Below are positions 3,868 through 51,006 of a DNA stretch of 64,000 nt, piece by piece. The translations under genes and the position numbers were made by a program. Within the stretch, counting starts at the first letter, position 1. The number at the start of each line of letters is the position of its first letter. The stretch lies in assembly GCA_033816765.1 (NCBI GenBank), contig CM066291.1, forward strand, positions 3,906,001-3,970,000. Direction: 5' to 3'. This DNA is from Nothopassalora personata. Taxonomy: Eukaryota; Ascomycota; Dothideomycetes; Mycosphaerellales; Mycosphaerellaceae. The notes below the pieces were generated by a model, which was not told the origin of the DNA, made no database searches, and saw nothing but the letters and a program-made list of their open reading frames with translations.

Positions 3868-3976
3868 ATATATATATATATATACCTCTCTGGTATATAT
3901 ATCCCTCTCTGGTATATATATCCCTCTCTGGTATATATATCCCTCTCTGGTATATATATACCTCTCTCGTATGTAT
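3868..3976. repeat. TA run and 19-bp minisatellite in the upstream region of acyl-CoA oxidase
   Basis: A TA-dinucleotide run is followed by about four head-to-tail copies of the 19-base unit ggtatatatatccctctct (unit starts at 3892, 3911, 3930 and 3949). It lies in the shared intergenic region between acyl-CoA oxidase (start 3621) and the HeLo gene (start 4465), so it may sit within a promoter. Short peptides readable across it are repeats, not genes. Confidence 0.9.
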
Positions 3977-28356: not shown

Positions 28357-28765
28357 TGTTACGGTTCTGATCTGGGGCTGAAGGAAGCTAACCAATCAGA
28401 CCTCCACAATTGGTGGGCGCTTCCGCCCGAGAAGTGCTCTCTCACCCGCAGGAATAAAACCAAGGAACCGAGAGAGCAACTGAAGTGATCTCCTTGATCT
28501 CGTTGATCTCGGTGATCTCGAGAGAGCATGGAGAGCATGGAGAGCACGGAGAGCAAACGCTCTATCTCCTTTGTATTTAGGAACGCTAGAAACCCTTATG
28601 GTTCTGATGCGTTCAACTCATGTTACTATCTCACTGATTGGAATACAACTCTTATTCCTATCATTTATCTTCGCTCAGCTTGCTTCAGCCTCTCCAAAGA
28701 ATAATACCGCCACGTGACTTGACTTATCTCTCTTTTGAGACTAGCCCTGGAACGAGACAATAACA
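28357..28765 (+). repeat. E1 5' LTR, 409 bp
   Basis: Begins TGTTACGG and ends AATAACA. It holds two 9-bp tandem arrays at about 28489-28553: four gatctcNNN units and four agagcatgg-like units. A segment GCGTTCAA at 28609-28616 is complementary to the base run just after the LTR (see findings). Confidence 0.95.
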
Positions 28766-28782
28766 CTTTGAACGCCCTCAGG

Positions 28783-30798: not shown

Positions 30799-30800
30799 GA

Positions 30801-33800
30801 ATGAGCGACCGGAGGGAGTTATGCAATATTCAGGCTCACGCATCGACATCAAACACAGTTTTCCAGACACAAGCAATCGTCAACGGACACAAGACTAGTG
30901 TCATGATCGACTCAGGAGCAGCGGGGAATTTTATCTCCGAGTCTTTCACAAGAAGAAACGGGTTAGCTACCCTAAAGAAGAAATGGGGTTACGAGTTGAT
31001 CGCGGTAAACGGATCATCGTTACCTAGCGTGGAATGGGAGACGATACCATTGCCACTGGCTATCCAACAGCACCACGAGAATATTACCTTGGATGTCACT
31101 GATATGGCCAGTCATGACATAGTATTAGGTATGCCTTGGTTGAGAAAGCACAATCCAGTAATCGACTGGAGAAGAGGAGTACTCACATTTAGGGAATGCG
31201 ATTGCGTTGTCGACATTCAGCCTGCGCAGTGGCAGCGTTCACTGGCAGATGAGGCAAGGAAACAGCTAAACGAGATACAGCTTGCGCCGACTAGAAGGAC
31301 AGAAGAACCACCTTCGACCGGGACAGACACTGGCGTGGGGCCGCCGGGTCACGAAGTCACTGGAAGTGATGGAAGTAACGCACCATCGAAGAATACTAAC
31401 ATCTCAGAGTTGAGTATTCCCAAGGAGTATCGCAAGTGGTCGCGACTCTTTGAAGAGGAAAGAGGCAAAACCGCCTTACCTAAGCACCGCCCATGGGATC
31501 ACAAGATCAACATTCAGCCAGGGAAAGAGCCTCCATGGGGACCCCTATATCAAATGTCTGAGAAAGAGCTACAGACCCTACGAGAATGGCTGAAGGAGAA
31601 GCTAGCCAAAGGATGGATAAGAAGATCCACCTCAAGTGCAGGAACTCCATGCATGTTCGTTCCAAAGGCAAACGGGAAGTTACGACTCGTACAAGACTAC
31701 AGGAAGTTAAACGAGATCACGATCAAGAACCGATACCCGCTACCCAACATCGAAGAAGCACAAGACAGATTAACCGGATCGGACTGGTACACGAAGATTG
31801 ACCTACGAGATGCCTTCTACGCTATACGGATGGCAGAAGGAGAAGAATGGAAAACCGCTTTTAGAACAAGATACGGACTCTACGAATTCTTAGTTATGCC
31901 AATGGGATTAACCAACGCACCCGCATCCTGCCAGGACCTTGTCAACGAAACACTTAGAGACCTACTCGACGTATGCGTTATCGCCTACATGGACGACATA
32001 CTAGTCTACACGAAAGGATCCCTACAGGAACACATAAGACAAGTCCAGGACGTCTTCGAACGACTCACGCAATCAGGATTCAAGACGGCACCCGAGAAAT
32101 GCGAATTCCACAAGAAAGAAGTCAAATTCTTAGGCTTCATTATTAGCACCACAGGGATAACGATCGACCCTGCGAAGACACAGTCAATTAGAGAGTGGCC
32201 AGAACCGAAAACAGTCAAGGACGTACAATCATTCCTTGGACTAGCGAACTACAACCGGAAATTCATTAAGGACTACTCAAAGACAGCAGCACCAATGACG
32301 ATGCTTACAAGAAAGGACGTCACTTGGAAATGGGGAAAAGAACAGATTGAAGCATTCAAGAAACTCAAGGAACAATGCGCTTCAGCCCCTACGCTTCGAT
32401 TATTCGATGGTAGCAAGGAAGTCCACATCGAGACCGATGCGTCTGATATGGCAATAGGCGCGTGTCTAACGCAGACACACGATGGGCAGAGACACCCAGT
32501 AGCCTATTACTCCCGGAAAATGACCACAGCGGAACAGAACTACGACATCCATGATAAAGAGCTTCTAGCCATTGTTGCTGCCATGCAACATTGGAGAGTA
32601 TATGTCGAGGGCCCACCGAAGTTAACGATTCTTTCTGACCACAAGAATCTTACGTACTTCACAACGACGAAAGAACTTACCCGAAGGCAAGCCCGCTGGT
32701 CGGAGCTGCTAGGACAGTATAAGTTCGAAATCAAATATACTCCAGGACGAGAGAATGGCCGCGCCGACGCGCTAAGCCGAAGAAGCGACTACATGGAAGA
32801 AAAAGAACCAGTGCAACATAAGATATTAAAGACGAACCCCGACGGAAGTCTTAGTGCCAACACAAGAGAATTCAACAACATCGTACGGATATTAGGCGAC
32901 AGGAACGAACAATTCCCTATATCGCAAGGAAAATACCAAGTACCTAAGGATCGAGAAGAAGAATGCATACGACAACATCACGACGGACCAACTTATGGAC
33001 ACCCTGGAACTTCAAAAACTATGGACCTAATACAGCGCAGTTTCTCCTTTCCACAGATGAGACTTAAGGTGTCACGCTACATTAAACAATGCGTACACTG
33101 CCAACGAAACAAGGCTGCGAGACATGCAAAATACGGTCACCTACAGTTCAGGACACCACCGACGAAACCATGGGACGAAGTCACAATGGACTTTATTACG
33201 AAACTCCCACCGTCAAGAGATCAAGTTACGAAACAACCATACGACATGATACTAGTCATGGTTGATAGACTTACGAAATACGCACACTTCATTCCTGCAT
33301 CAGAAACGTACAATGCAGAGCAGCTCGGATACCTCGTACTGGATAGACTTATCCGATACCACGGATTCCCTCAAGCGTTTATAACGGACAGAGACAAGCT
33401 ATTCACATCAAACTACTGGAAGACGCTTATGGGAACGATCGGAATTAAACACAAGCTGTCAACAGCATATCATCCGGAGACAGACGGACAAACCGAAAGG
33501 ATGAATCAAACGCTAGAACAATACCTACGACACTACATCAACTATGCACAAGACAACTGGGTTTCATTACTGCCAATAGCGCAGATTGCACTAAACAACC
33601 ACAAATCGGAGACAACTTCAACGACGCCATTTTATGCGAACTTTGGTAAAGATCCTAACCTATTCGGAATACCTGGATCCCATCCACAGGCCGAGAGAGC
33701 AATCGTGACGACGGATACTCTTAAGGAAGTGCACAAAGAAACACGCAAGGCGATCGAAGATGCACAACGAAAACTGTCTCAACAACGGCAGGACACGAGA

Positions 33801-34217
33801 AAAATGGCACCTCTGCTAAAAAAGGGGGATAAGGTCTATCTCCTTACAAAAAATTTGAGAACAAGAAGACAGACCAAGAAACTAGATCACGTCAAGGTCG
33901 GACCATTTTTAATCGACAAAGTCGTAGGACCAGTTAACTATCGACTACGACTACCACCTGACGCAAAAATCCACCCAGTCTTCCATATCTCTAAGCTGGA
34001 ACCCGCAGACGCCAGAACACCTTGCCAAGAGAGCTTCCATTTCGAGCCGGAAGCAGAAAACGAATTTGAAGTCGAAAAAATCCTAGATAAAAAGGGTCAG
34101 CGATACCTTATCAAATGGAAGGGATACGACGAATCAGAAAATACCTGGGAACCAAAAGAAAACCTACGAAACTGTCAGCAGAAGATTCGGGAGTATCAAA
34201 ACGGACGACTGGAGTAG
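30801..34217 (+). CDS. pol: E1 Pol: protease, reverse transcriptase, RNase H, integrase, chromodomain
   Basis: 1138 residues from its own ATG in a different frame from gag. Aspartic protease motif DSGA at 30909. RT with LVQDYRKLNEIT and the catalytic YMDD at 31986. Ty3-type RNase H with ETDASDMAIGACL and the YYSRKM/DKELLAIV region. Integrase with an HHCC zinc domain (GHPGTSKTM...CVHCQRN), catalytic core MDFITKLP, FITDRDKLF and HPETDGQTERMNQ. C-terminal chromodomain ILDKKGQRYLIKWKGYDESENTWEP (34075-34160 region). All catalytic residues expected by eye are present. The last 12 bases overlap the 3' end of the tRNA-like sequence. Confidence 0.95.
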   Translation: MSDRRELCNIQAHASTSNTVFQTQAIVNGHKTSVMIDSGAAGNFISESFTRRNGLATLKKKWGYELIAVNGSSLPSVEWETIPLPLAIQQHHENITLDVTDMASHDIVLGMPWLRKHNPVIDWRRGVLTFRECDCVVDIQPAQWQRSLADEARKQLNEIQLAPTRRTEEPPSTGTDTGVGPPGHEVTGSDGSNAPSKNTNISELSIPKEYRKWSRLFEEERGKTALPKHRPWDHKINIQPGKEPPWGPLYQMSEKELQTLREWLKEKLAKGWIRRSTSSAGTPCMFVPKANGKLRLVQDYRKLNEITIKNRYPLPNIEEAQDRLTGSDWYTKIDLRDAFYAIRMAEGEEWKTAFRTRYGLYEFLVMPMGLTNAPASCQDLVNETLRDLLDVCVIAYMDDILVYTKGSLQEHIRQVQDVFERLTQSGFKTAPEKCEFHKKEVKFLGFIISTTGITIDPAKTQSIREWPEPKTVKDVQSFLGLANYNRKFIKDYSKTAAPMTMLTRKDVTWKWGKEQIEAFKKLKEQCASAPTLRLFDGSKEVHIETDASDMAIGACLTQTHDGQRHPVAYYSRKMTTAEQNYDIHDKELLAIVAAMQHWRVYVEGPPKLTILSDHKNLTYFTTTKELTRRQARWSELLGQYKFEIKYTPGRENGRADALSRRSDYMEEKEPVQHKILKTNPDGSLSANTREFNNIVRILGDRNEQFPISQGKYQVPKDREEECIRQHHDGPTYGHPGTSKTMDLIQRSFSFPQMRLKVSRYIKQCVHCQRNKAARHAKYGHLQFRTPPTKPWDEVTMDFITKLPPSRDQVTKQPYDMILVMVDRLTKYAHFIPASETYNAEQLGYLVLDRLIRYHGFPQAFITDRDKLFTSNYWKTLMGTIGIKHKLSTAYHPETDGQTERMNQTLEQYLRHYINYAQDNWVSLLPIAQIALNNHKSETTSTTPFYANFGKDPNLFGIPGSHPQAERAIVTTDTLKEVHKETRKAIEDAQRKLSQQRQDTRKMAPLLKKGDKVYLLTKNLRTRRQTKKLDHVKVGPFLIDKVVGPVNYRLRLPPDAKIHPVFHISKLEPADARTPCQESFHFEPEAENEFEVEKILDKKGQRYLIKWKGYDESENTWEPKENLRNCQQKIREYQNGRLE

Positions 34218-34279
34218 GAATCGAACCCACGACCTCAAGAGTGTAGACAGCTTGCGCTCTACCACTGAGCTACCCAGCC
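34206..34279 (-). tRNA. tRNA or tRNA-derived gene inside E1, anticodon unassigned
   Basis: 74 nt fold as a cloverleaf. The acceptor stem has 7 pairs, with two G-T wobbles (34273-34279 with 34207-34213). Positions 8-9 are TA, the D arm is GCTC-AGTGGTA-GAGC, the T arm GTGGG-TTCGAAT-CCTAC, and the variable loop AGGTC. A box (TAGCTCAGTGG) and B box (GGTTCGAATCC) are near consensus. The anticodon stem is imperfect (CAAGC/TCTTG, last pair mismatched) and its loop is 9 nt (TGTCTACAC) rather than 7, so I cannot assign an amino acid; it may be a tRNA pseudogene. The 3' end overlaps the pol stop. E2 lacks it at the same place. Confidence 0.6.
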
Positions 34280-34319
34280 GATTGATAAGAACAGGGACAC
34301 AACTTACAAATAAATACCC

Positions 34320-34884
34320 TTACGAAGGAGACGGCTGAGCCACCGACGGCACCGTCTCGCCAGAAGGAGAAAGCCAGAAGTCGTCCGGAAGACCTTCGAC
34401 AGCACTCCAGGTCCAAGGAGACAAGGACAGATTGGGAGCACTAGGATCCGCGTCTGCTACAGCGTACTCCTGCGCCCCTGGATCCTCGTCTAGCAACAAC
34501 CGATCTTCCAACGAACGACCCTCCGCAACCTTCTGATCAACCGCATCCAATTGCTTACGAAGGCGCATTTCCTTTGCATGCGCTTCCATTAAGGCATCCT
34601 GCCTTTCACCAAGAATCCTCTTCGCGGTATCCAGTTCCTGCAACAATTTCTTCCGCTGAAGCGATAAGCGCTTCCACTCGCCCTCGGTTACCCTCGCATT
34701 GCAACTCTTCAGATTCCGCTGCCAGCACTCGGAACAGCGACCAGATGAGATGTGCACCTTGCACACACGGCCCTCCTTTTGACAAAGAATCACACGGACG
34801 CATCGCGGTATCACCGTCACGAAAGATCTGCTGGGCTTTCTTCTTGCGGCGAGCGGTAGATTTGGATTGGGAGGAAAAAGACAT
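34320..34884 (-). pseudogene. E1 antisense Zn2Cys6-coiled-coil gene, frameshifted
   Basis: It runs from MSFSSQSKSTARRK (ATG 34884, 77 bp from the 3' LTR) toward pol. One extra base in the A-run 34784-34786 shifts the frame inside the zinc cluster. Allowing for it, six cysteines stand at C-x2-C-x6-C-x8-C-x2-C-x7-C, the spacing of fungal binuclear zinc clusters. A charged helix follows (LQRKKLLQELDTAKRIL...RLRKQLDAVDQK), likely a coiled coil, and then a Pro/Ser-rich tail with DDFWLSPSGE. It is homologous to the intact E2 copy. Known Gal4-type proteins bind CGG triplets; any role here is inference. Confidence 0.75.
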
Positions 34885-34960
34885 CGTTGCGAGACACGAA
34901 AAGGAAGTACAAACATGACTTATGAAGCTCTGGGACAGAGCTAGGCTAAAAGGGGGATGG

Positions 34961-35369
34961 TGTTACGGTTCTGATCTGGGGCTGAAGGAAGCTAACCAAT
35001 CAGACCTCCACAATTGGTGGGCGCTTCCGCCCGAGAAGTGCTCTCTCACCCGCAGGAATAAAACCAAGGAACCGAGAGAGCAACTGAAGTGATCTCCTTG
35101 ATCTCGTTGATCTCGGTGATCTCGAGAGAGCATGGAGAGCATGGAGAGCACGGAGAGCAAACGCTCTATCTCCTTTGTATTTAGGAACGCTAGAAACCCT
35201 TATGGTTCTGATGCGTTCAACTCATGTTACTATCTCACTGATTGGAATACAACTCTTATTCCTATCATTTATCTTCGCTCAGCTTGCTTCAGCCTCTCCA
35301 AAGAATAATACCGCCACGTGACTTGACTTATCTCTCTTTTGAGACTAGCCCTGGAACGAGACAATAACA
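34961..35369 (+). repeat. E1 3' LTR, 409 bp
   Basis: Same sequence as the 5' LTR by eye, preceded by a purine-rich tract and followed by TSD ACGAG. Confidence 0.95.
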
Positions 35370-35374
35370 ACGAG

Positions 35375-35624
35375 TAGTCGAGCGGTCGGCTAGCTAGGTC
35401 GTGCTCGACCGACTAGCTAACTAACTAGGTCGTGCTCGACTAGCTAGTCGCGCTAAGACATAGCATTATATAGACGACGCTCTTTTATAAGTAGATAGAA
35501 GCCTCGTACTTAACTTATTTTAAGTATATACTATATACTATTTAGGACTACTACCTTCTTAACGTTCGAGACATTACTATAAAGAACTAAGCCCGGTTAG
35601 GATAACGTATAGCGGTTCCTAACA
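35375..35624 (+). repeat. E3 5' LTR, right part
   Basis: Continuation of 28311-28356 after E1. It contains palindromic CTAGCTAG/GGTCGTGCTCGACC motifs (about 35375-35455) and ends TCCTAACA. It matches the 3' LTR parts 44769-44958 and 45305-45370. Confidence 0.85.
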
Positions 35625-35689
35625 ACTTTAAGTACTACTACTAGGGCCCTTTATATATATCTAGGAGAGACGCTACCCGGAGTCCGTTA

Positions 35690-36274
35690 CGATAAACGCT
35701 ATAGTTAACTAGTATTACGGAACGAATAAGCGAAATGTCGATTATAGGAAGTAGTAAGAACAACACTCCTATAGGTATGCTAAACCTATTAGACTACTAC
35801 CGTACACCTAAAGTATCTACGCCGGAGACGTTCGACGGGACTAAGGACAAACTAGAGGCTTTTTAACTATAGGTTTAGTTATACCTTTACTTTAACGTAT
35901 ACTAGTTTTAAGGCAAGGCTAGTAAGGTCTCATACGCCGTATCCTTCCTACGAGGAAAAGCAGCTAGAGGATTCTAACTATACCTTAAGGACTAGCTATA
36001 TAACTAGGGCGAGGGAGAAATACCGAAAACGGAAACTCGAAAAATTTTCTACGACTATAACGAGTTTAAGACGAAACTAAATAATCTATACGGGATACCT
36101 AACGAGGAGATATACGCCGACCGATATATCCGATAACTTTGATAGACGTATTTAGTTACCGTCTACGCTTTAGAATTCTAAGGATATACCGCCGACCTAG
36201 AATAGAACGACGTAGTATTACGATCGTAGTTCTACCTCGGGCTAAAGGACAACGTTAAAGCCGAACTATCCCAA
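35690..36274 (+). pseudogene. E3 gag remnant, N-terminal part
   Basis: RIP-decayed but recognisable Gag: a TPETFDGTKDKLEAF-like region, SYAVSFLRGKAARGF, and at the break LGLKDNVKAELS, equivalent to RRGLKDSVKDELM of E1. Stops replace likely Trp and Gln codons. E2 interrupts it at 36274; it continues at 43648. Confidence 0.75.
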
Positions 36275-36800
36275 TGTTACGGATCGGATTGGGCCTGCAA
36301 CCGCAAGCCAATCAGATACCTCACAGTTAAGCGGGCGCAGCCGCTGCAAAGTGTGTTACGGATCGGATTGGGCCTGCAACCGCAAGCCAATCAGATACCT
36401 CACAGTTAAGCGGGCGCAGCCGCTGCAAAGTGCTCTGCTGATCTGCTTGATCTGTCGAACAGATCAACAGATCAGAGCAGAGTACGACGCGAGACGATCT
36501 GCTGCTCTGTTTGATCTGTCGAACAGATCAACGGATCAAACAGATCAAGACTATGAATCTCCTTTGTATTTAGGAGCGCTGAGAATCCCTTATGGCTTCG
36601 AGGCGTTCAACTCACTGTTCAATATCACTGTTTGGAATACACCACAACCCAACCTCTGCCTCATTGTTTCTTGAGCCTTTGTAAGGTCAAGACACTACTG
36701 CTTCATCACTCTCCCTCAAACTTCCCATCGGCCCGAGAACAAACCCGATTGAGCTTGTCTTCTTGACTTGTGATATCATTAGGTTATACCAAACCTAACA
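36275..36800 (+). repeat. E2 5' LTR, 526 bp, with internal 79-bp duplication
   Basis: The first 79 bp (36275-36353) are repeated directly from 36354, so TGTTACGGATCGG occurs twice. It then has inverted repeats built from GATCTG/CAGATC (about 36435-36550). GGCGTTCAA at 36602-36610 is complementary to 36804-36812, just downstream of the LTR. Ends CCTAACA. Confidence 0.95.
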
Positions 36801-36819
36801 GCTTTGAACGCCCTCTACG

Positions 36820-39113
36820 ATGGGAGACCGACAGAGTGAACGGGGAACACCCGCCCCCAGTGAAGCAGGCAGAGCCCGACGACCTCAGACCGCAAACGAT
36901 GCTATCAATGCCTTGGCTACTCATACAGGCAACGACACCCTCAAGGTTGGCAAGCCAGAATTCTATTATGGCGATCGAGACAAGTTCGACACTTGGGTTG
37001 CTCAGATGGATATGTACTTCTTGTTCAACTCCATGGCTGAGAACCTCAAGCCTGTCTTTGCCACTACCTTCCTGAGAGGACGAGCACAGCATTGGGTCAA
37101 ACCCTTCCTTAGGACCTACCTGGACAGCAACGGCAACGACAACGCTAACGGGATCTTTACGTCTTACGGTCATCTCAAGAGCGCGATGAAGAGCGTCTTT
37201 GGCATCTCGAACGAGGTTGCTACTGCTGTACGCGTCATCCAACATCTGACCCAGAAGACATCCACTGCCGACTACGCTGCCAAATTCCAGGAGTACGCCC
37301 AGCTTACTGATTGGGACGACGAAGCACTTCAAGTCATGTACCGGAGAGGATTGAAGGAGCATGTCAAGGATGAGTTAATGAGGGACGGTCGAAGGATCGA
37401 TGACCTGGGATCTCTGGTCAAGGTCACGATCGATCTTGACGACAGACTCTACGAGAGAGCTCTAGAGCGACGATACGACTCCAAAGTATCCGGAAGAGCC
37501 GGATTTACCCCAGGCTACGACAATCGTAACAAGGGCTTTAGCGACAACTACAGTAAGCCCAGAAACAAGCCATACTACGGACCACAGCCAATGGAGCTCG
37601 ACGTCACCGAAAGGGGTCGCAAGATCAGGAACAGCAAGGGGAACAGAAGACCCCCGAGCTCAGGAAAGGAAACACGAACCTGCTATGGATGTGGCAAACC
37701 TGGCCACCTAGCAAGGGACTGTCGCGGTAAGAATATGGTGCGCCGCGAACAGTTCAACACGATGCAACGACGAACTAGTAAACTTGAGAGCAGTGTCGGG
37801 TCTCCAGAAGACACCGACTATACTCAAGGAGTGGAGGAGAGAGCTAGCGAAGGAAGCACAGAGCCTCTCCTGGACCCCTCACAGGGACGAGGAGGATACC
37901 ATGGGCAACAGATGACGGTCATTTCATCTGAATTGCGAAACCAACCACAACAGTTCAACATGATGACACGAGGTCACACCAATTCCCCACGAGGACCTAT
38001 ACGAATGATCTTTCCAGACCACCCGGATGCGCAAGGAACCTGGGAACAACTCACTACAGTAGTGAGGGAACGATTCCCAGAACACGCGCGACAACGACAA
38101 GCGTGGCTCGACATTACACATAAGATCCTACAGGTCATAGAGGACTTCCCCAACGTAACGGAAGAACCCTACAGAAGTCAACGACGCGAACTCCTGACGT
38201 TCTATGAAGGAGCCCGCCAAGAAGTCCTACGACTGGACCGAACAAGGGAATTTGGAATGATGACAAGAAGAGTCGACTACGAGATCGAATCCGAATCTCG
38301 AAATGGTCACGGAAGCCTTCATTGGCGATTCTGTTACCAAGACTCGTGTCAGGTTCACTACTCCGCCAAGTTAGGAGCAGGGTATTGGCCTCAGCAGCCG
38401 CGAGGAACCCTGGGAGCGCAACACAGGCAGGATGCCAAGCTCCAGGAAGTGGACGTCGACGAATCCTGCTTCGACGACGAGGACAAGGAAACCAGGACCC
38501 AGGATGGAACGGATCGTGGTCACCCGAACCACAGGAAGAAAGTCAAGAAACCACCGGGCTGGACAACATCCAAGAAGAACAGGATCCGGAAGAATCAAGC
38601 GACGAAGATTCCTCCGAAGGAGAAGAGAGCGACACCGACGACGACAACGAAGTCCAAACGTTTACTATGGACGCACCAAAAATGATCTTCGAATTACTCG
38701 TACATGTAATTCGGAGAAGCGAAGAAGTCTTCCCAAAGATACAGCGACGACGCTACCTGCACCCAGAACAGTTCGATCTAATGCTCGACACGATGCGAGG
38801 GATGGTCTGGAGACACCCCATCGTGGAACACGACAACGATAGCGCCAAGATCGTACAGGAGCGACCACCCATTGGAAGCAAGATGACCGCATTTGGATAC
38901 ATCACGCCGTCAGGAATAACGATCACGAATGAACTTAGGAAGTCAGTTCAGCACGTGAAAGCACTCTACTCAGAAACGCAGAAGATCCAGGAACGCAACA
39001 ACAGAGAAGCATGGAGACCAGGAGCTTCGCTACAGGTTCAAGCCGAAGCCTTGCGACACGAAATGCAACGTTCTACCCACGCATCGGGAAAAGGATCGAC
39101 TCCCCAGGAATGA
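36820..39113 (+). pseudogene. gag: E2 Gag, one frameshift
   Basis: The first frame runs from MGDRQSERGTP with capsid-like FYYGDRDKFDTWVAQMDMYF, a CCHC knuckle (CYGCGKPGHLARDC, about 37681-37722) and the extra 99 residues that E1 lacks. Near 38490-38492 one base is missing relative to E1, so the acidic tail (NQDPGWNGSWSPEPQ...) is read in the next frame, up to TGA 39111-39113. That TGA overlaps the pol ATG as ATGA. The first frame ends early at 38685. A programmed frameshift is possible but E1 argues for a mutation. Confidence 0.85.
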
Positions 39114-42100
39114 GCGACCAAAGGGAGTTATGCAACACTACACAGGCTCAAGCATCAACAACAGTGTTTCGAACGAAGATTATCGTCAACGGGCAACGGA
39201 CATATGCCATGATAGATTCCGGAGCGAGCGGGAACTTTGCCTCCGAATCATTTGTCAAACGACACGGATTAGCTACCCGAAGAAAGGAAGAGGGGTATGA
39301 ATTGATCGCGGTAGACGGATCATCCTTACCCAGTGTGGAGCGCGAGACGATACCGCTGCCACTTGCAATCCAACAGCACCACGAGGAAATCACCTTGGAT
39401 GTTACTGACATGGCCAGTCATGACATCGTACTTGGGATGCCTTGGTTGAGAAAGCACAACCCAGTAATCGACTGGAGAAGAGGAGTACTCAGGTTTGAAC
39501 AATGCGATTGCGTTATCGACATTGAACCTACGCAGCGGCAGCGTTCGCTGGTAGATGAGGTAAGACAGCTAAATAGGATACAGCTTGCACCGACTAGAAG
39601 GACAGAAGAACCACCTTCGACTGGGATAGACACCGACTTGGGGCAGTTGGGTCATGACATCACCGGAACGGATGGAAGTAACGCACCATCGAAGAATACC
39701 AACATTTCGGAGTTGGATATTCCCAAAGAATATCGCAAGTGGTCGCGACTCTTTGAAGAGGAAAGAGGCAGGGACGCCTTACCTAAACACGCACCATGGG
39801 ATCATAAGATAAACATTCAGCCAGGAAAAGAGCCTCCATGGGGACCCCTATATCAAATGTCCGAAAAAGAGCTCCAGACCTTACGGGAATGGCTGAAGGA
39901 GAAGCTAGCGAAAGGTTGGATACAGCGGTCCACCTCAAGCGCAGGCGCTCCATGCATGTTCGTTCCAAAACCAAACGGGAAACTACGACTCGTACAAGAC
40001 TACCGGAAGTTGAACGAGATCACGATCAAAAACCGATATCCGCTACCGAACATCGAAGAAGCACAGGACAGATTAACCGGATCAGACTGGTACACCAAGA
40101 TCGACCTACGAGATGCCTTCTACGCTATACGAATGGCGGAAGGAGAAGAATGGAAAACCGCTTTCAGAACACGATACGGACTATACGAGTTTAAGGTCAT
40201 GCCAATGGGATTGACCAACGCACCCGCATCCTGCCAGGACCTTGTCAACGAAACACTTAGAGACCTACTCGACGTATGCGTCATCGCATATATGGACGAC
40301 ATACTGGTCTATACCAAAGGATCCCTCCAGGAGCACATCAAGCAAGTCCAGGACGTATTTGAACGGCTCACCGGAGCAGGGTTCAAGACAGCACCAGAGA
40401 AATGCGAGTTCCACAGGAAAGAAGTCAAATTCTTGGGCTTCATCATCAGCACCACGGGGATCGCGATCGACCCTGCAAAGACACAATCGATCAGAGAATG
40501 GCCAGAACCAAAGTCAGTCAAGGACGTACAATCGTTCCTTGGACTAGCCAACTACAACCGGAAATTCATCAAGGACTATTCGAAAACAGCAGCACCAATG
40601 ACGATGCTTACGAGGAAAGACGTCAACTGGAAATGGGGAAAGGAACAATCTGACGCGTTCCAACGACTCAAGGAGCAATGCGTGTCAGCCCCCACGCTTC
40701 GACTATTCGATGGTAGCAAGGAAGTCCACATCGAGACCGACGCGTCCGATATGGCAATAGGCGCATGTCTAACACAGACACACGATGGGAAGCGACACCC
40801 AGTAGCCTATTACTCCCGAAAAATGACCACGGCGGAACAGAACTACGACATCCATGACAAGGAACTTCTAGCCATAGTTGCTGCCATGCAACATTGGAGA
40901 GTATACGTCGAAGGACCACCAAAGTTAACGATTCTATCAGACCACAAGAATCTCACATACTTTACGACAACAAAGGAACTTACCCGAAGGCAAGCCCGCT
41001 GGTCGGAGCTGCTGGGACAGTACAAGTTCGAGATCAAATATACTCCAGGGACAGAGAACGGCCGCGCCGACGCGCTGAGCCGAAGAAGCGACTACATGGA
41101 AGGAAAAGAACCAGTGCAACACAAGATACTCAAGACAAACCCCGACAGAAGTCTTAGTGCCAACACGAAAGAGTTCAACAACATCGTGCGGATACTACGC
41201 GACACAGAAGAACAATTCCCAATATCGCAAGGGAAATACCAAGTGCCAAAGGACCGAGAGGAAGAATGTATACGACAACATCACGACGATCCGCTGTACG
41301 GACACCCTGGAACAACGAAAACAGTGGACCTCATACAACGCAGCTTCTCATTTCCACAGATGAGACAAAAAGTGCTACGCTACGTCAAACGCTGTGTACA
41401 CTGTCAACAGAACAAGGCTGCCCGACATGCAAAATACGGTCACCTTCAATTCAGGACTCCTCCTACGAAACCATGGGACGAAGTCACGATGGATTTCATC
41501 ACCAAACTCCCCATCTCACGGGATCAAGTCACCGAACAACCCTACGACATGATACTGGTCATGGTTGACAGACTTACAAAGTATACACACTTCATCGCAG
41601 CATCAGAGACATACACTGCAGAACAGCTCGGATACTTGATACTGGACAGGTTGATCCGATACCATGGATTCCCAGAAGTTTTCATCACGGACAGAGACAA
41701 GCTGTTCACTTCCAATTACTGGAAAACACTCATGGGAACAATCGGCATCAAACATAAACTGTCAACAGCCTACCATCCGGAGACCGACGGACAAACGGAA
41801 AGAGCAAATCAAACCTTGGAACAATATCTACGGCACTACATCAACCATACACAAGACAATTGGGTTTCACTGCTGCCAATGGCACAGATTGCACTGAACA
41901 ACCACAAATCAGAGACAACTTCTACGACGCCATTCTATGCGAACTTTGGAAAGGATCCTAACCTGTTTGGAGAACCTGGATTCCACCCACAGGCCGAAAG
42001 AGCAATCGTGACGACGGATACTCTTAAGGAAGTGCACAAAGAAGCGCAAAAAGCGATCACGGATGCACAACATAAACTGTCTCACCAACGACAAGATGGC

Positions 42101-42583
42101 AGAAAAATGGCGCCTCTGCTTAAAGAGGGGGATAAGGTCTATCTCCTCACAAAAAACTTGAAAACAAGGAGACAGACCAAGAAGCTGGATCATGTCAAGG
42201 TCGGACCATTTTTCATTGACAGAATCGTCGGACCAGTCAACTACCGCCTACGCCTACCACCCGACGCAAAGATCCACCCAGTCTTCCATGTTTCCAGGCT
42301 GGAACCCGCGGACGCCGAAACACCTTGCCAAGAGAACTTCCATTTCGAGCCGGAAGCAGAGAACGAATTCGAAGTCGAAAAAATCCTGAACAAGAAAGGT
42401 CAGCGATACCTTGTCAAGTGGAAAGGATACGACGAATCAGAAAATACCTGGGAACCGAGAGAGAACCTCAAGAATTGCCGGGTGCTCCTGATGGAGTACC
42501 TCCGACACCAGAAGAAACCCGGAGCGAAGAAGGACCGTACAACCAGAAATCCGACGACACGTCGTATCCCTGATCGACCATGA
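39110..42583 (+). CDS. pol: E2 Pol: protease, RT, RNase H, integrase, chromodomain
   Basis: 1157 residues from ATG 39110, which overlaps the gag stop (ATGA). Protease MIDSGASGNF, RT LVQDYRKLNEIT with YMDD at 40289, Ty3-type RNase H (ETDASDMAIGACL, DKELLAIV), integrase HHCC (GHPGTTKTV...CVHCQQN) and core MDFITKLP, FITDRDKLF, HPETDGQTERANQ, chromodomain ILNKKGQRYLVKWKGYDESENTWEP. The C terminus is about 25 residues longer and more basic than in E1 and overlaps the antisense gene by 116 bp. Apparently intact. Confidence 0.95.
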   Translation: MSDQRELCNTTQAQASTTVFRTKIIVNGQRTYAMIDSGASGNFASESFVKRHGLATRRKEEGYELIAVDGSSLPSVERETIPLPLAIQQHHEEITLDVTDMASHDIVLGMPWLRKHNPVIDWRRGVLRFEQCDCVIDIEPTQRQRSLVDEVRQLNRIQLAPTRRTEEPPSTGIDTDLGQLGHDITGTDGSNAPSKNTNISELDIPKEYRKWSRLFEEERGRDALPKHAPWDHKINIQPGKEPPWGPLYQMSEKELQTLREWLKEKLAKGWIQRSTSSAGAPCMFVPKPNGKLRLVQDYRKLNEITIKNRYPLPNIEEAQDRLTGSDWYTKIDLRDAFYAIRMAEGEEWKTAFRTRYGLYEFKVMPMGLTNAPASCQDLVNETLRDLLDVCVIAYMDDILVYTKGSLQEHIKQVQDVFERLTGAGFKTAPEKCEFHRKEVKFLGFIISTTGIAIDPAKTQSIREWPEPKSVKDVQSFLGLANYNRKFIKDYSKTAAPMTMLTRKDVNWKWGKEQSDAFQRLKEQCVSAPTLRLFDGSKEVHIETDASDMAIGACLTQTHDGKRHPVAYYSRKMTTAEQNYDIHDKELLAIVAAMQHWRVYVEGPPKLTILSDHKNLTYFTTTKELTRRQARWSELLGQYKFEIKYTPGTENGRADALSRRSDYMEGKEPVQHKILKTNPDRSLSANTKEFNNIVRILRDTEEQFPISQGKYQVPKDREEECIRQHHDDPLYGHPGTTKTVDLIQRSFSFPQMRQKVLRYVKRCVHCQQNKAARHAKYGHLQFRTPPTKPWDEVTMDFITKLPISRDQVTEQPYDMILVMVDRLTKYTHFIAASETYTAEQLGYLILDRLIRYHGFPEVFITDRDKLFTSNYWKTLMGTIGIKHKLSTAYHPETDGQTERANQTLEQYLRHYINHTQDNWVSLLPMAQIALNNHKSETTSTTPFYANFGKDPNLFGEPGFHPQAERAIVTTDTLKEVHKEAQKAITDAQHKLSHQRQDGRKMAPLLKEGDKVYLLTKNLKTRRQTKKLDHVKVGPFFIDRIVGPVNYRLRLPPDAKIHPVFHVSRLEPADAETPCQENFHFEPEAENEFEVEKILNKKGQRYLVKWKGYDESENTWEPRENLKNCRVLLMEYLRHQKKPGAKKDRTTRNPTTRRIPDRP

Positions 42584-43028
42584 GCCCCCAGGTGTTAGGA
42601 GACAGGTGAAAGTCCAGCGACTCCTGCTGCTCCAGCTCCGACAAGGCTGCGGACTCCACAGCAATGGCCTCGTCGGCTCTCTGATCCACGAGCTCCATCT
42701 GCTTCCGAAGCCGCTCCTCCTTTGCGTATGCAGTGTTCAGAGTCTCCCGAGCACGCTCTTGAGCCTCGCGGGCCTCCTTAATCTGCCTCTCCAACTTCTT
42801 CTTCTCACCGATCAGACGATCGAACTCGGAACGCGACACCTTCACGTCACAACGAACGTTGCGACGCACACACTCGTTGCACCGCCCCGACGACACGTGT
42901 ACCTTGCACACGCGCGAATGCGCTCGACAGTTGGAACAAGACCGAACCATTATCTCTCCAAAACTTTCGATCGTTTCTGCTAACTTGAGGCGACGAGAGG
43001 TGCTGGATGAAGATGACACCTTTGGCAT
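42468..43028 (-). CDS. E2 antisense Zn2Cys6-coiled-coil protein (intact)
   Basis: 186 residues, start ATG 43028, only 88 bp from the 3' LTR and reading back into pol. Residues about 30-62 contain six cysteines at C-x2-C-x6-C-x8-C-x2-C-x6-C, which satisfies the Gal4-type binuclear zinc cluster rule C-x2-C-x6-C-x5-12-C-x2-C-x6-8-C. A long charged helix follows (FDRLIGEKKKLERQIKEARE... to LRKQMELVDQRADEAI), a probable coiled-coil dimerisation region, again the Gal4 arrangement. The tail is acidic with Leu/Phe/Trp (LEQQESLDFHLSPNTWG, SSDFWLYGPS), similar to activation segments. It is probably transcribed from within the 3' LTR on the antisense strand. Function as a transcriptional regulator is inference. 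Confidence 0.8.
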   Translation of the reverse strand: MPKVSSSSSTSRRLKLAETIESFGEIMVRSCSNCRAHSRVCKVHVSSGRCNECVRRNVRCDVKVSRSEFDRLIGEKKKLERQIKEAREAQERARETLNTAYAKEERLRKQMELVDQRADEAIAVESAALSELEQQESLDFHLSPNTWGLMVDQGYDVSSDFWLYGPSSLRVSSGVGGTPSGAPGNS

Positions 43029-43116
43029 GATGAGAACATGGACAAAGAAACGACGACGGCCGAGGCAACAGAGTTATGACCTCAGCTCGTGGCGAGCTAG
43101 GCTAAGAGGGGGATGG

Positions 43117-43642
43117 TGTTACGGATCGGATTGGGCCTGCAACCGCAAGCCAATCAGATACCTCACAGTTAAGCGGGCGCAGCCGCTGCAAAGTGTGTTA
43201 CGGATCGGATTGGGCCTGCAACCGCAAGCCAATCAGATACCTCACAGTTAAGCGGGCGCAGCCGCTGCAAAGTGCTCTGCTGATCTGCTTGATCTGTCGA
43301 ACAGATCAACAGATCAGAGCAGAGTACGACGCGAGACGATCTGCTGCTCTGTTTGATCTGTCGAACAGATCAACGGATCAAACAGATCAAGACTATGAAT
43401 CTCCTTTGTATTTAGGAGCGCTGAGAATCCCTTATGGCTTCGAGGCGTTCAACTCACTGTTCAATATCACTGTTTGGAATACACCACAACCCAACCTCTG
43501 CCTCATTGTTTCTTGAGCCTTTGTAAGGTCAAGACACTACTGCTTCATCACTCTCCCTCAAACTTCCCATCGGCCCGAGAACAAACCCGATTGAGCTTGT
43601 CTTCTTGACTTGTGATATCATTAGGTTATACCAAACCTAACA
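43117..43642 (+). repeat. E2 3' LTR, 526 bp
   Basis: Same as the 5' LTR including the 79-bp duplication; preceded by the polypurine tract aagagggggatgg and followed by TSD CCCAA. Confidence 0.95.
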
Positions 43643-43647
43643 CCCAA

Positions 43648-44130
43648 AACGCTAGCGTTATTACGCTAGGGGCGATAATTAAGGTAGTAAAGGAGATCGA
43701 CGAAAGGCTCTAGGATTTAAGGTACGACTAATTCGTATAGCCTAGAGACTAGAGACCCGCTATAGGCGGAAGAGGGGGCTTTAAGGCTAGAAGTTAGGAC
43801 CCTAACGGTTACGGAGACCTAATAGAATTAGACGTAACGGAGCGTAGGATAGGAAGGGGGCTAAAGAGTAAAGGCTCTACCTACTACGTATATAGCGAGT
43901 AAGGTTACTATATAAGAAACTATAAGAAAAAGAACATAGTTAGCCGCGAGTTTAACGTAATAATTCGCGAAGAGAAAATATACTAGGAATACGAGAACTT
44001 CTTCTCGAAATCTACCTAGTAGAAACAACCTAATAACGATAAGGCATTAAATAGCGGCTTCTTAATTTAATAGCCTAGGACATAGAAGTTAATACAACGA
44101 CATAGAAACACGACTATTAGATACTACAAC
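43648..44130 (+). pseudogene. E3 gag remnant, C-terminal part
   Basis: Continues the E3 Gag after E2: IIKVVKEIDERL, a degraded zinc knuckle (Cys codons changed to Tyr codons) and SREFNVI, equivalent to RREQFNMM in E1. No pol follows. Confidence 0.7.
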
Positions 44131-44700
44131 TTACGACGGATAGCTATCGGGCTACGAGAAAGGAGAAGCAACGCCGGCTTTGAGAAGGTTATCCTCTAGA
44201 CCGGGGAAGTCCGATAACTTAGGATTGTTAGGGTCGAATTTAGTATTAGCCGCTAGATAGCGTACCTATTCTTCTACCTTCCTATTATTTTCGTTACGGA
44301 CCTTCCGGTTTCGCTCGATATAGTAACGGATTTTATCTACTCGACGAAGTAAGGTAAGAGCCTACGCGGTTATCCTTTCCGCGTCCTTCTCGTCCTTCGC
44401 GATCTTCTCGGATAGCTCGTTAATAACCTGGTCTAACCGGCTAAGGGAGGTCAAGACGTAAGGAGTGCCGTTACGTATACACTTAGCGTAAGACATAATA
44501 TAGAAATCGGCGATAATAATATAGTGAGAGTTAGTTTTAGCACAATTCTCGTAAGGAAGTAGCGGGAAGAAGGGATTCGTAAAGATACGTACGAGACGAC
44601 GGTTATAGGATAAAGTACTCGTAGAGGGTATAGCGAAGTTAGAATTACGGAGGAAATTTAGGTAGACAACGCTCTTTATAACTAATAACACGTAATTGCT
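44130..44700 (-). pseudogene. E3 antisense Zn2Cys6-coiled-coil gene, RIP-decayed
   Basis: The longest open piece is 44362-44691. Reading Tyr codons as former Cys codons, the spacing is C-x2-C-x6-C-x10-C-x2-C-x6-C around YENCAKTNSHY and YAKCIRNGTPY. A charged helix follows (LDQVINELSEKIAKDEKDAERI), as in E2. The start region is about 30-40 bp from the 3' LTR and its ATG is lost. The sequence is diverged from E1/E2 but has the same place, orientation and architecture. Confidence 0.65.
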
Positions 44701-44728
44701 AGGACATCGATCCTAGAGGGGGGGATAG

Positions 44729-45370
44729 TATTACGGTCCGTTACGGGTAACGTAGAAGGACCTAGCTAGACGAGCAGTCGAGCGGTCGGCTAGCTAGGTT
44801 GTACTCGACCGACTAGCTAACTAACTAGGTCGTGCTCGACTAGCTAGTTACGCTAAGACATAGCATTATATAGACGACGCTCTTTTATAAGTAGATAGGA
44901 GCCTCGTACTTAACTTATTTTAAGTATATACTATATACTATTTAGGACTACTACCTTCTGTTACGGTTCGGTTCAGGAAGAACCCACAGCCACTCATTCT
45001 TCGGGAAGGACCGAAACTGAGCAGGTCGACTTCGCTCAGACTGATCAGCTCAGTGATCAGTTCGCTCAGTCTGCTCAGTGATCAGTCTGCTCAGTCTGAT
45101 CAGTTACGCCAAGACATGGCACTATATAGACGACGCTTCTTTACGAGTAGATAGGAGCCTCGTGCTCAACTCAAATCAACACTCTTGTGTTAAGTTGCAA
45201 CCTTGTAGTGAACTCTCGTTCACACTACTTTAGAGACATATCGAGGATCGACACTTCCTAGGCCACCCACGTGACGAGGGACAAGGCCCAACCGCAACAC
45301 CTTCTTAACGTTTAAGACATTACTATAAAGAACTAAGCCCGGTTAGAATAACGTATAGCGGTTCCTAATA
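44729..45370 (+). repeat. E3 3' LTR, interrupted by a solo LTR
   Basis: Parts 44729-44958 and 45305-45370 sum to 296 bp, matching the 5' LTR, with RIP-type C/T and G/A differences. Preceded by a G-rich polypurine tract (agagggggggatag). Confidence 0.85.
44959..45299. repeat. Solo LTR, 341 bp, not RIP-mutated
   Basis: Begins TGTTACGGTTCGG and ends CGCAACA, with TSD CCTTC on both sides (44954-44958 and 45300-45304). It has TGATCAG/CTCAGTCTG repeats in the first third (about 45020-45105). The start matches the E1/E2 LTR starts but the rest differs: another family of the same group, left by LTR-LTR recombination. Confidence 0.92.
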
Positions 45371-45392
45371 CGAGGTACCCTTATATAAGGGC

Positions 45393-45511
45393 CGTAAGGC
45401 TATAAGGGATGTCGTAATATATAGCACGCCTACGATCTTCTAATCGTAGATGAACTAAAGCTTACTTTCTTCTATCAACGCTGTACGCGTCTCCTAGTGT
45501 ACGTATACGCG
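45393..45511. repeat. 192-bp repeat family, truncated copy
   Basis: Matches the first about 120 bp of the 28095-28286 copy (taaggctataaggg... acgtatacgcg) and stops exactly where E4 begins, so E4 inserted into it. Confidence 0.75.
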
Positions 45512-45972
45512 TGTTAGGTTTAGTATAACCTATAATCTTACTAAGTCAACTAACGAGTTAGGTAACCTTCGTTCGATTAAGATTTATTCTCGTCGAGTAG
45601 GAGTAGGAGGGAGAGTAGTATAAAGCAGTAGTAAGGTAGCGGTTAGGTATTAGTGTATTCTAAACAGTAAGATTAAATAGTGAGTTAAACACTTCGAAAG
45701 CTATAAGGGCGTTTCTTCGCATTCCTAAATATAAAGGAGAACTCGTCTCGCCTAGGTAGTGATCGGTATACTCGTTATGCTTAGTAGTACTAAGTATACT
45801 AAGTATACTAAGCATTTCGCATATCTACGTAATATGCGCTTAGTGCGGTTTACGTAACGGTCTAGCCTTAGGCCCCTCGGCACGTGTCCGTAGCTTATAC
45901 TAAGAGATCGCTGTTTAGTATCCTAGTTCGTAATTAGTAGTTTCTCGTCCCTAGGGACATTAAACCGTAACA
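45512..45972 (-). repeat. E4 3' LTR, about 461 bp
   Basis: Homologous to the E2 LTR without the 79-bp duplication; heavily RIP-mutated. Confidence 0.8.
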
Positions 45973-46064
45973 CTATCCCCCTTCTAGCCTAGCTTAGTCC
46001 CTTAAGCTAACTACATATAACGCGTAAATTCCCCTAACCTATCTTTTCGCTATAGCCTCTTACG

Positions 46065-46620
46065 ATGTCTAAATACTAGCGCCCTTCTAGTACCGTCCGT
46101 TGCTATCGGTTATATAAATTTATCGAGTCCGCCGGCAAAATTATAGTAAAGAAATGCTTAACCTACGAAAAGTATAGTTACGTATACAAGGTCTATCTCC
46201 GGTCCGGGAAGTATAGTAAGTGTCTTCGTCGCGGCTAAAGATACGACGTAAAGGTAACTTAGTCGGAGTTTAAGAGGTTATCGGAGGAGAAGGCTCGGCT
46301 ACGCTAAAAGATTTAGGAGTCTCGTTCTACTTAAGAGGAAGCTATACGGGCGTACGAAAAGGCTCTTAAGGATTTAAAAATCGCGAGGGTACGCGAGGAG
46401 CGTCTCCGGCAGTAGATAGATCTAATCGATCGCCGCGCGGAGGAGGCGATCGCTATCGAAGAGAGGAGTATCGAGGAGCAGGAAGCTGAGGAGGCTCTAG
46501 AGCTTCTTACGGAGGGATAGGCCGAGGGTCTTACTCTTAACCTGTCTCCCGGTACTTAGGGTACGCTCGAGGGCTTTAGTAATAACTTCTAGGAAGTCCC
46601 TAACCTATTACCTACTAGTT
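46065..46620 (+). pseudogene. E4 antisense Zn2Cys6-coiled-coil gene, RIP-decayed
   Basis: It reads on the + strand, opposite to E4 pol, and starts ATG at 46065, 92 bp from the LTR. Several TAG/TAA stops replace likely Trp/Gln codons. Cys codons (or Tyr codons derived from them) stand at C-x2-C-x6-C-x8-C-x2-C-x6-C, identical spacing to E2. It then reads KVT.SEFKRLSEEKARLR and a helix (REERLR.IDLIDRRAEEAIAIEE) closely matching the E2 coiled coil. Confidence 0.75.
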
Positions 46621-46639: not shown

Positions 46640-48829
46640 AGTACTCCCGTAACTTCTGCTAATAGTTTTATAGGTTTCCTTCTAGTTCCTAGGTATTTTC
46701 CGAGTCGTAGTATCCTTTCTATTTAATAAGGTATCGCTAACCCTTCTTATCTAGGATTTTCTCGACTTCGAATTCGTCTTCCGCTTCCGGCTCGAAGTAG
46801 AAGGTTTCTTAGTAAGGTGTTTCGGCGTCCGTAGGTTCTAATAGCGAAATATAGAACACTAGGTGGATTTTTACATCTCTTAGTAGCCGTAGTCGGTAGT
46901 TAATAGGTCCTCGTGCTTCTTTAACGAGAAATAGTCCGACTTTTACCTAATCTAGCTTTTTAGTCTTTCTTCTTATCTTAAGATTTTTTATAAGAAGGTA
47001 GACCTTATCCCCCTTCTTAAGCTAAGGCGCTATTTGTCGTCGTTTATTATATAGGATCGCAACCTTATCCTAGTTTTCTTTAATCTTTAATACTAAGTTT
47101 CCGTAGATGATTTTTATTACCCTCGTAGTTACGATTACCTTTTTAGCTTATAGGTATAATCCTTATTTGCTAAACAAATTCGGGTGTTTTCCGTAGTTCG
47201 CGAAGAAAGGTGTCTCGTCCGTTGTTTTAGACTTATAGTTGTTTAGTACTAATTGTACTATAGGTAGGAGTGTTACCTAATTGTCCTATACGTAGTTAAT
47301 ATAGTGTCGTAGATACTATTCTAAGGTCTAATTTGTTCTCTCCGTTTACCCGTCCGTTTACGGGTAGTAGGCTATTAATAGTTTGTGTTTAATTCTAATC
47401 GTAGAAACTAATGTCTTCTAGTAGTTAGATGTAAATAGCTTGTCTCTATCTATAATAAAGACCCTTAGGAATCTATAGTATCGTACGAGTTGATTAAGTA
47501 CGAGGTGTCTAAGTTGCTCTACATTGTACGTTTTAGATATAGGAATAAAGTGTGCGTATTTCGTAAGTCGGTCTACTATAACTAATATTATATTATACTA
47601 TTACCCTATAGTTAGGTCCTAAGATGTTAGTAACTTAGTAATAAAGTCTATCGTAACCTTATCCTATAGGCTTGTTAGTAGTGCCCGGAACTGTATTTTG
47701 CCGTATTTTACATGTCTCGCGGCTTTATTCTTCTAATAGTGTTCGTATCGTTTAATATATCGTAGTACCTTCTAGCGGAGCTATAGGAATACGAAGCTTC
47801 GTTATATTAGTTCTACTGTCTTAGATGTTCTAGGATGCCTATAGATTAGTTCGTCGTAATGTTGTCGTATATATTCTTCTTCTCGGTTCTACGGTACCTA
47901 GTATTTCCCCTATACTATTAGGAATTGTTCTTCCGTGTCCTAGAGAACACGTACTATATTATTAAACTCCTTTATATTAGTACTAAGGCTTCCGTCTACA
48001 TTTGCCTTAAGTACTTGCTATTGCACTAGTTCCTTTCCTTCTATATAGTTACTTCTTCGGCTTAGTACGTCGGCCCTACTATTGTCCTTACCGGGTATAT
48101 AGCGGATTTCGAACTTATACTAACCGAGTAGTTCCGCCTAGCGGGACTGTCTTCTTATTAGTACTTTAGTCGTAGTAAAGGAAGTAAGATTCTTATAATT
48201 AGAAAGAATCGTTAGCTTAGGTACTCCCTCCGCGTATACTCTCTAGTACTGCATTATAGCGATAATAGCGAGAAGTTCCTTATTATAGATATCGTAGTTT
48301 TGTTCCGCGGGTATTATTTTCCTTAAGTAGTAGGCTACTAGGTGTCGTTTCCTATTATACTCTTAGGTTAGATATACTCCGATAGCTATGTCCGATGCGT
48401 CCGTTTCGATTTAGACTTCTTTCGTACCGTCAAATAGTTAAAGCGTAGGCGCTAAGGCGTACTAGTCCTTAAGTGCTTAGAACGCTCGTTATTCTACGTT
48501 ACCCTATATCTATTTAATATCCTTTCTCGTAAGTCTTATTATAGGTACTAATGTCTTTAAGTAGTCCTTAATGAATTTCCGGTTATAGTTAGCTAAACTA
48601 AGGAATAATTATACGTCTTTAACGCATGTTAGTTCTAGCTATTCTCTAATAGACTATGTCTTTATTAGATCGATCTAGATTCCTATCGTACTAATAATAA
48701 ATCCTAAGAACTTAACCTCTTTCTTATAGAACTCGCATTTCTCGGGTACCGTCTTAAATCCTACTCGGCTAAGTCGTTTAAAGACGTCTTAGACTTGTCG
48801 CATGTAATCTTAAAGCGATCCTTTCGTAT
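46640..48829 (-). pseudogene. E4 pol remnant (RT end, RNase H, integrase, chromodomain)
   Basis: On the minus strand, recognisable blocks include VGFKTVPEKCEFYKKEVKFLGFIIS (RT, near 48740), an RNase H/linker region (IRYIPGKDNSRADVLSRRS, near 48100) and downstream integrase-like sequence, with many RIP stops. It begins at the RT segment VYTKGSL, cut by E5. Confidence 0.8.
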
Positions 48830-51004: not shown

Positions 51005-51006
51005 GC

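Follow-up and report, generated by a model that had tools for sequence, protein, structure and literature searches.

A zinc-cluster-like antisense gene exchanged together with U3 among LTR retrotransposons of Nothopassalora personata

Antisense genes and modular LTRs in described elements

An additional gene placed antisense between pol and the 3' long terminal repeat (LTR) has been described in several retrotransposons, and these elements are the closest known counterparts of the system treated here: a zinc-cluster-like gene encoded opposite to gag and pol by gypsy-type elements of the fungus Nothopassalora personata, found in a stretch of 64,000 nucleotides (contig CM066291.1 of assembly GCA_033816765.1, positions 3,906,001 to 3,970,000; hereafter the window). 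A 2011 paper by Zhao et al. in Virology reportedly names brtn, an antisense gene of Boty-like gypsy elements, in its title. In the consulted portion of PMC7264820, brtn appears as an additional antisense gene between pol and the 3' LTR of Boty-like elements from Botrytis, and the function of the antisense accessory genes of LTR retrotransposons is given as unknown. Boty is, like the elements described here, a fungal gypsy element, and one described copy holds gag-pol with a chromodomain (PMC4227169). The same placement is found in the full-length elements of types A, B and D of N. personata. The first-pass annotation of the window knew of no described system of this kind; an antisense gene at this place was already known in brtn, which is compared here by its description.

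Similar arrangements occur outside fungi. In plants, Grande (gene23), RIRE2, Retand and PvRetro13 hold an antisense gene between pol and the 3' LTR that is conserved in most copies; unlike the genes described here, no protein similarity is reported for them in the excerpts of PMC7264820, except for an SMC domain and a transposase domain. In retroviruses of the human T-cell leukaemia virus (HTLV) type, the antisense genes HBZ and APH are expressed from the 3' LTR and their proteins regulate LTR transcription, according to the consulted part of PMC10186651. The basic leucine zipper (bZIP) family is absent among the Pfam matches of the eleven versions of the N. personata protein presented below, which do not qualify as members of the HBZ type. 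HBZ is a bZIP protein without a zinc cluster, and we know of no cassette exchange for HBZ or APH. On the other hand, VANC proteins of the VANDAL DNA transposons are element-encoded and sequence-specific, and their target motifs are short tandem repeats within their own element that differ between related families; however, as far as the excerpts of PMC5735166 go, VANC belongs to a DNA transposon and acts in anti-silencing, and is not a zinc-cluster antisense gene of an LTR element.

Regarding the LTR itself, crapaud from Podospora is a fungal element with gag, pol and a chromodomain, whose LTRs fall into 14 subfamilies that are told apart mostly by U3 as far as the TATA box; the two LTRs are unlike in 7 of 150 full copies, as they are in two elements reported here (L037 and L043). 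Two open reading frames (ORFs) are drawn for crapaud, the word antisense is absent from the available portion of the text, and LTR type shows little association with the internal region, whereas in N. personata U3 type and antisense gene go together. The cause of U3 diversification in crapaud is given there as unknown: escape from repeat-induced point mutation (RIP) was tested by the authors and not supported, and both template switching and gene conversion are discussed for LTR exchange (PMC10787394, in part). The Tnt1 superfamily also exhibits modular evolution, with a diversifying U3 and a conserved remainder, although no accessory gene is mentioned in the portion consulted (PMC1838419). 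A zinc-cluster-like antisense factor that is swapped with U3 between element bodies and kept in gag-only elements did not turn up in literature searches confined to an open-licence library; the original brtn paper may cover part of it.

Exchange and conservation of the antisense gene

Two full-length elements of the window, E1 and E2, hold the antisense gene next to their 3' LTRs:

28357..35369, plus strand: E1 element, type D, with the order LTR, gag, pol with chromodomain, antisense gene, LTR (from ORFs and Pfam domains)
34320..34884, minus strand: antisense zinc-cluster-like gene of E1, with a one-base frame break near the N-terminus; open portion 34320-34793
34961..35167, plus strand: U3 of the E1 3' LTR, of type D, in which TGATCTCG / GAGAGCA sites recur; forms the cassette with the antisense gene
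36275..43642, plus strand: E2 element, type A, inside E3; LTRs 36275-36801 and 43116-43642, target-site duplication CCCAA
42468..43028, minus strand: antisense zinc-cluster-like gene of E2, 186 residues, intact, with C-x2-C-x6-C-x8-C-x2-C-x6-C
43117..43404, plus strand: U3 of the E2 3' LTR, of type A, in which GATCTG/CAGATC sites recur, TTGATCTGTCGAACAGATCAA among them; placed by alignment to the L040 copy

Reverse transcriptase, integrase and chromodomain are recognised by Pfam in both elements. E1, flanked by the 5-bp target-site duplication ACGAG, is 98.4% identical to the L039 element across 7017 columns, and E2 is 99.9% identical to the L040 copy. The antisense position, orientation and cysteine spacing reported by the first-pass annotation were confirmed, with the intact ORF of E2 carrying the full pattern, as was its distance of 30-90 bp between start codon and 3' LTR, measured as 76 bp in E1 (LTR from 34961) and 87 bp in E2 (LTR from 43116). 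The 3' end of the E2 gene overlaps the end of the pol ORF (39011-42583). For E1, position and orientation held, while the six cysteines do not lie in an intact frame: from the ATG at 34884 the frame hits stops, and all six can only be read across a one-base shift. Over 564 aligned bases, the E1 gene differs from the intact L039 copy by one substitution and one single-base gap, and open-frame copies of this type are present elsewhere in the genome. The end of U3 in the E1 3' LTR was set at the point where identity to type B resumes, at 35168.

The block that changes between elements is delimited by comparing bodies that are otherwise alike. Between a type B element (L031) and the type D element L039, identity in 200-bp windows is 91-100% from 201 to 5800, drops to 34-46% in 5801-6600, rises to 71% in the window that includes the U3 boundary (6601-6800) and is 98% at the end, the first 200 bp being 40% identical. 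Three comparisons among gag-only elements of types C, F and H gave 89-100% over 201-1400 and 32-69% over 1401-2200. Within the LTR, identity resumes at or shortly before a TATA-like box, and outside this resumed identity only the terminal TGTTACGG is common (TTC also in B/D). Judged by where identity falls and resumes in the B/D and C/F/H comparisons, the exchanged block is the end of the last sense ORF, the antisense gene and U3.

The same holds for the gag-only elements as a population. The gag of 121 listed gag-only copies is 98-100% identical to the query, and to 115 of these copies one of twelve antisense versions was assigned by position, lying on the opposite strand no more than 1.5 kb away, with six unassigned. 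The cassettes carried by this single backbone are H (26 copies), C (25), M (14), F (12), N2 (12) and H3 (7), together with the rarer N (6), H2 (5), K (4), Q (2), R (1) and S (1). Since 5-bp target duplications were found in all 14 elements checked (six gag-only, six full-length, E1 and E2), these elements represent genuine insertions, and the antisense gene is kept in elements that lack pol and have such duplications.

Two arrangements of gag-only elements were observed besides. At one locus, elements with C-type and H cassettes lie about 2.5 kb apart in opposite orientation (L036:1319-3721, minus strand, and L036:6238-8614, plus strand). A tandem array on contig C12 (G000:C12:1356314-1367583) comprises six gag-330 copies with a period of 2056 bp, each with an H-type antisense gene, and corresponds to head-to-tail elements sharing LTRs.

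The pairing of gene and U3 was followed genome-wide through exact matches to the U3 patterns of four types, B, C, D and H (the list for C holding 100 of its 103 sites), for a set of 87 near-identical antisense genes of types B, C, D and H that leaves out decayed copies and other types. On the 5' side of the gene, U3 was of the gene's own type in 86 of 87 cases, of none of the four types in one and of a wrong type in none, so that gene and adjacent U3 were never seen apart in this set. The distant LTR was of the same type in 80 cases, of none of the four in six and of another type in one, L043, which holds a D U3 in its 5' LTR and a B U3 in its 3' LTR. In L037, the U3 of the 5' LTR is unlike A, B and D. 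These unlike U3s indicate that LTR exchange occurs.

Relatives of the gene beyond the locus are abundant elsewhere in the same genome, answering a check proposed in the first-pass annotation. Searches of the genome (54.5 Mb, 40 contigs) with the E2 protein, the E1 piece 34320-34793 and the type H and type N proteins gave at least 150, 150, 111 and 150 matches, respectively, in lists that overlap. The 186-residue frame of E2 has at least 15 intact copies at 100%, the window's own included, and the intact types are abundant (at least 26 H and 32 C copies, for example), a few of the C copies containing one TAG. Many other antisense copies have several TAG/TAA stops, as RIP would leave. No relative of the E2 protein was found in GTDB or IMG/VR contigs, collections that are not of fungi as such.

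Eleven intact versions of the protein were read: A (E2), B and D, on full-length elements, and C, F, H, H3, K, M, N and N2, which adjoin one gag-only body. Seven other types (H2, P, Q, R, S, T and V) are known from search matches only. The ten other versions are 22-54% identical to E2, and ten columns are invariant over all eleven (M1, the six cysteines, L72, R106 and P166, in E2 numbering). The region before the first cysteine is net positive in ten versions and neutral in N2, and the last 50 residues are net negative in ten. The common plan is thus a basic N-terminus, a cysteine cluster, a predicted coiled coil and usually an acidic aromatic tail.

A chance ORF was rejected, given that the antisense frame contains no stop in any of the eleven versions and each of the other five frames holds at least one in every version. 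Ratios of nonsynonymous to synonymous substitution (dN/dS) were estimated by the Nei-Gojobori method for ten pairs, eight of them computable (D-F and A-C were saturated): N-N2 0.16, H-H3 0.22, F-C 0.36, D-C 0.40 and H-K 0.43, and, at high dS, A-B 0.23 (dS 2.1), A-D 0.23 (dS 3.0) and B-D 0.28 (dS 2.6). These ratios are rough because dS is so high, but all are still well below 1. The antisense frame is under purifying selection, and its six cysteines are invariant, in agreement with the expectation of the earlier annotation for a functional gene. Recent capture of a host gene was rejected as well: the versions constitute a separate and varied family, and their resemblance to a single host Zn_clus gene is only weak.

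The encoded protein, the U3 sites and their candidate role

The Gal4-type Zn2Cys6 domain follows the rule C-x2-C-x6-C-x5-12-C-x2-C-x6-8-C, and nine of the eleven versions conform to it. When compared with solved structures, the N-terminal profile gave ten rows at an expected value (E) of up to 10, seven of zinc-cluster regulators and three of Mdm4. The regulators take the first four ranks, with LAC9 at E 0.003 (the only one below 0.05), GAL4 in four rows from 0.1 to 9.5, an ethanol regulon factor, which we take to be AlcR, at 0.57, and LEU3 at 0.7. For the full-length profile, the Tom20 coiled coil came first (E 0.002) and LAC9 second (E 0.007), with LEU3 (0.1) and GAL4 (0.7) further down among many coiled coils. 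Against 12 host Zn_clus domains, the profile aligned with the six cysteines in register (pairwise E 2.2e-5, probability 76), and the type H protein has a match (E 3.6e-4) in a host gene, at C1:3132060-3132308, where a Zn_clus domain sits. An AlphaFold2 model built from two window sequences has a mean predicted local distance difference test score of 71 and a predicted template modelling score of 0.40, with a confident helix at 66-138 and blocks scoring 72-88 over residues 21-60. The first rank of a Foldseek search with this model was the zinc-cluster dimer Put3, at a non-significant E of 2.9.

Several of the results weigh against a canonical assignment. N and N2 have 13 residues between cysteines 2 and 3, outside the rule; the Pfam gathering cut-off of PF00172 (Zn_clus), 21 bits, was reached by none of the eleven versions (K scored 20.4 bits, the best, and H3 13.4; the other nine were unlisted at E 0.5-1); the proline before cysteine 4, present in all 12 host Zn_clus domains, is absent in all eleven versions; and Foldseek returned no match at E 0.001 or better. 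Because the profiles match, yet the Pfam cut-off is missed and the Foldseek result is not significant, we conclude from the sequence that the N-terminus is a predicted, divergent Zn2Cys6-like domain and not a formal member of the family. The profile comparisons point to the zinc-cluster fold proposed in the first-pass annotation, but the structure model has no significant fold match.

Most U3s hold short repeated sites, for example GATCTG-TCGA-ACAGATC in both A and F, TGCTCTCTCGAGAGAGCA in type C, CTGATCA in type B and 18 CGAGCA copies in H3. A core, GAKCA/TGMTC, was compared with 500 dinucleotide shuffles, of which two at most reach its count in nine of twelve U3s. In these nine, core sites amount to 3.8-8.8 per 100 bp, versus 0.45-0.58 in six element bodies, and the stretch downstream of U3 has 0-2. 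In the F U3, CAGATC/GATCTG exceeds all 500 shuffles. An inverted repeat as good as the best one arises in no more than 5 of 200 shuffles for five of the twelve U3s (A, B, C, F and M).

Two other features of the LTRs were noted. A CCAAT box lies about 30-70 bp inside the LTR in A, C, D, F and H, where a host factor might bind in the sense or antisense promoter. The type A LTR (both LTRs of E2, and L040) opens with a repeated unit of about 79 bp starting TGTTACGGATCGG, the number of which seems to vary between type A LTRs.

The scheme that follows builds on a predicted coiled coil and zinc cluster, and in it we infer expression of the gene, binding of DNA by the protein, its action on its own U3, activation and the route of exchange. 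The element would combine an engine, made up of R-U5 and gag and in some cases pol, with a swappable control cassette (the antisense gene and U3). The antisense gene, probably transcribed leftward from the 3' LTR, would encode a small transcription-factor-like protein with a long coiled coil for dimerisation, and the dimer would bind the short repeated sites in U3s of its own type. Most likely, it would activate the sense promoter in every copy bearing that U3, including gag-only copies that borrow pol. Cassettes would pass between engines as a unit. A plausible route is a template switch between co-packaged RNAs in reverse transcription, at R and close to where the last sense ORF ends, and the engine would thereby gain a new specificity of regulator and promoter.

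This element-encoded transcription factor, activating its own LTR and exchanged as a cassette with U3, is the reading that we consider moderately probable. The suggestion of the first-pass annotation that a retroelement-encoded regulator acts on its own LTR receives circumstantial support from the co-exchange with U3 and from the site arrays in most U3s examined, whereas a number of observations count against it. Gene and U3 are neighbours, so their pairing alone is no proof of co-selection, and protein distance is not significantly correlated with U3 k-mer distance (Mantel r 0.16, p 0.09). The core was picked after inspecting the U3s, it is not enriched over 500 shuffles in the K, F and H U3s, and inverted repeats are ordinary in seven of the twelve. 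CGG triplets are the usual sites of the zinc-cluster class, and the U3 sites are not of this kind. Finally, the tail of F has a net charge of +1.

If the proposed regulation is true, a regulator exchanged with its own promoter would answer both the function of the antisense genes and the diversification of U3, and it would explain the retention of the gene in elements without pol. By analogy, there is about an even chance that this represents a retrotransposon counterpart of phage immunity regions, with a pool of at least twelve regulator-operator cassettes and each lineage controlling only its own promoter. Each cassette would comprise an antisense dimeric zinc-cluster factor and a U3 with its own array, moved between pol-bearing and gag-only bodies, and such cassettes would explain the U3 subfamilies of fungal elements such as crapaud. 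One genome would then provide natural small regulators with matched candidate target arrays, and the question reduces to a simple test, namely whether each protein acts only on its own U3.

The sign of the regulation could also be the opposite. A protein that represses U3s of its own type would serve copy-number control, latency or immunity against same-type copies, and new cassettes would spread because resident repressors fail to recognise them, an arrangement in which the swap of regulator and promoter on a constant body recalls phage immunity regions. The antisense proteins of HTLV-type viruses, moreover, mostly inhibit LTR activity or promote latency (PMC10186651, in part). Repression is nonetheless unlikely: the acidic aromatic tails of ten of the eleven versions suit an activator better, gag-only elements have little reason to keep a repressor gene, yet 115 of 121 carry one, and intact types reach numbers as high as at least 26 (H) and 32 (C) copies. 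Activation is favoured over repression because of the acidic tail and the retention in gag-only elements.

More doubtful still is a nuclear role unrelated to U3 regulation (bringing the pre-integration complex into the nucleus, choosing targets, controlling host genes or countering silencing), with U3 co-travelling by adjacency alone. It would account for the non-significant correlation between protein and U3 divergence and for the K, F and H U3s without site enrichment, and the Grande antisense protein is nuclear, with its function given as unknown (PMC7264820, in part). However, a general helper would not require twelve versions on a single gag body, and the dense arrays of most U3s are limited to U3. 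That the antisense RNA is what counts and its ORF has no role of its own, as retroelement antisense RNAs may act without protein (PMC7264820, in part), is very improbable in view of dN/dS below 0.45 in all eight computable pairs, a frame open in all versions when the other five are stopped, and invariant cysteines.

Decayed elements and other features of the window

The remaining antisense genes of the window belong to E3 and E4:

35449..36272, plus strand: 5' part of E3 (LTR, gag), a decayed gag-only element, 84.6% identical to positions 139-967 of an H-type gag-only element
43643..44959, plus strand: 3' part of E3 (remaining gag, antisense gene, LTR pieces), 81% identical to positions 965-1579 of an H-type element
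44130..44640, minus strand: decayed H-like antisense gene of E3 with three TAG codons; genome match G000:C5:3950134-3950625
46065..46620, plus strand: decayed B-type antisense gene of E4, by comparison to type B
46642..48829, minus strand: pol relic of E4, 3' fragment of a reversed element, about 70% identical to D and A pol

The first-pass annotation had counted four gypsy elements, and four complete elements were rejected. The pieces of E3, including the LTR piece 44851-44959, correspond to a gag-only element of about 2.4 kb split by the insertion of E2, and E4 retains a 3' portion of a B/D-like element. The annotation's explanation of the lost cysteines as tyrosine codons created by RIP fits both genes: tyrosine replaces four of six cysteines in E3, read against type H, and four of six in E4, read against type B. 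E4 differs from B at 164 positions (85 C>T/G>A, 30 T>C/A>G) and E3 from H, which is not its closest relative, at 210 (74 C>T/G>A, 34 T>C/A>G), an excess in the direction expected from RIP.

Other decayed copies, N-like antisense genes that are all 58% identical and share the same stops, are present on the small contigs C20, C21, C30, C31, C33, C34, C39 and C40, and also near the start of C9 (C9:5400, C9:20204); perhaps they belong to a chromosome-end repeat. Within the window, a relic LTR at 57103-57448 shares 74% identity with the type A LTR, and no internal part that would match was found next to it. Another gypsy element (49183-55809) has a pol ORF with reverse transcriptase, integrase and chromodomain, and no cysteine-cluster ORF was seen behind it among ORFs of at least 100 residues. 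At 3624-4111, overlapping minus-strand ORFs encode repeated YIPERDIYTREG-like peptides, and this region is probably a minisatellite.

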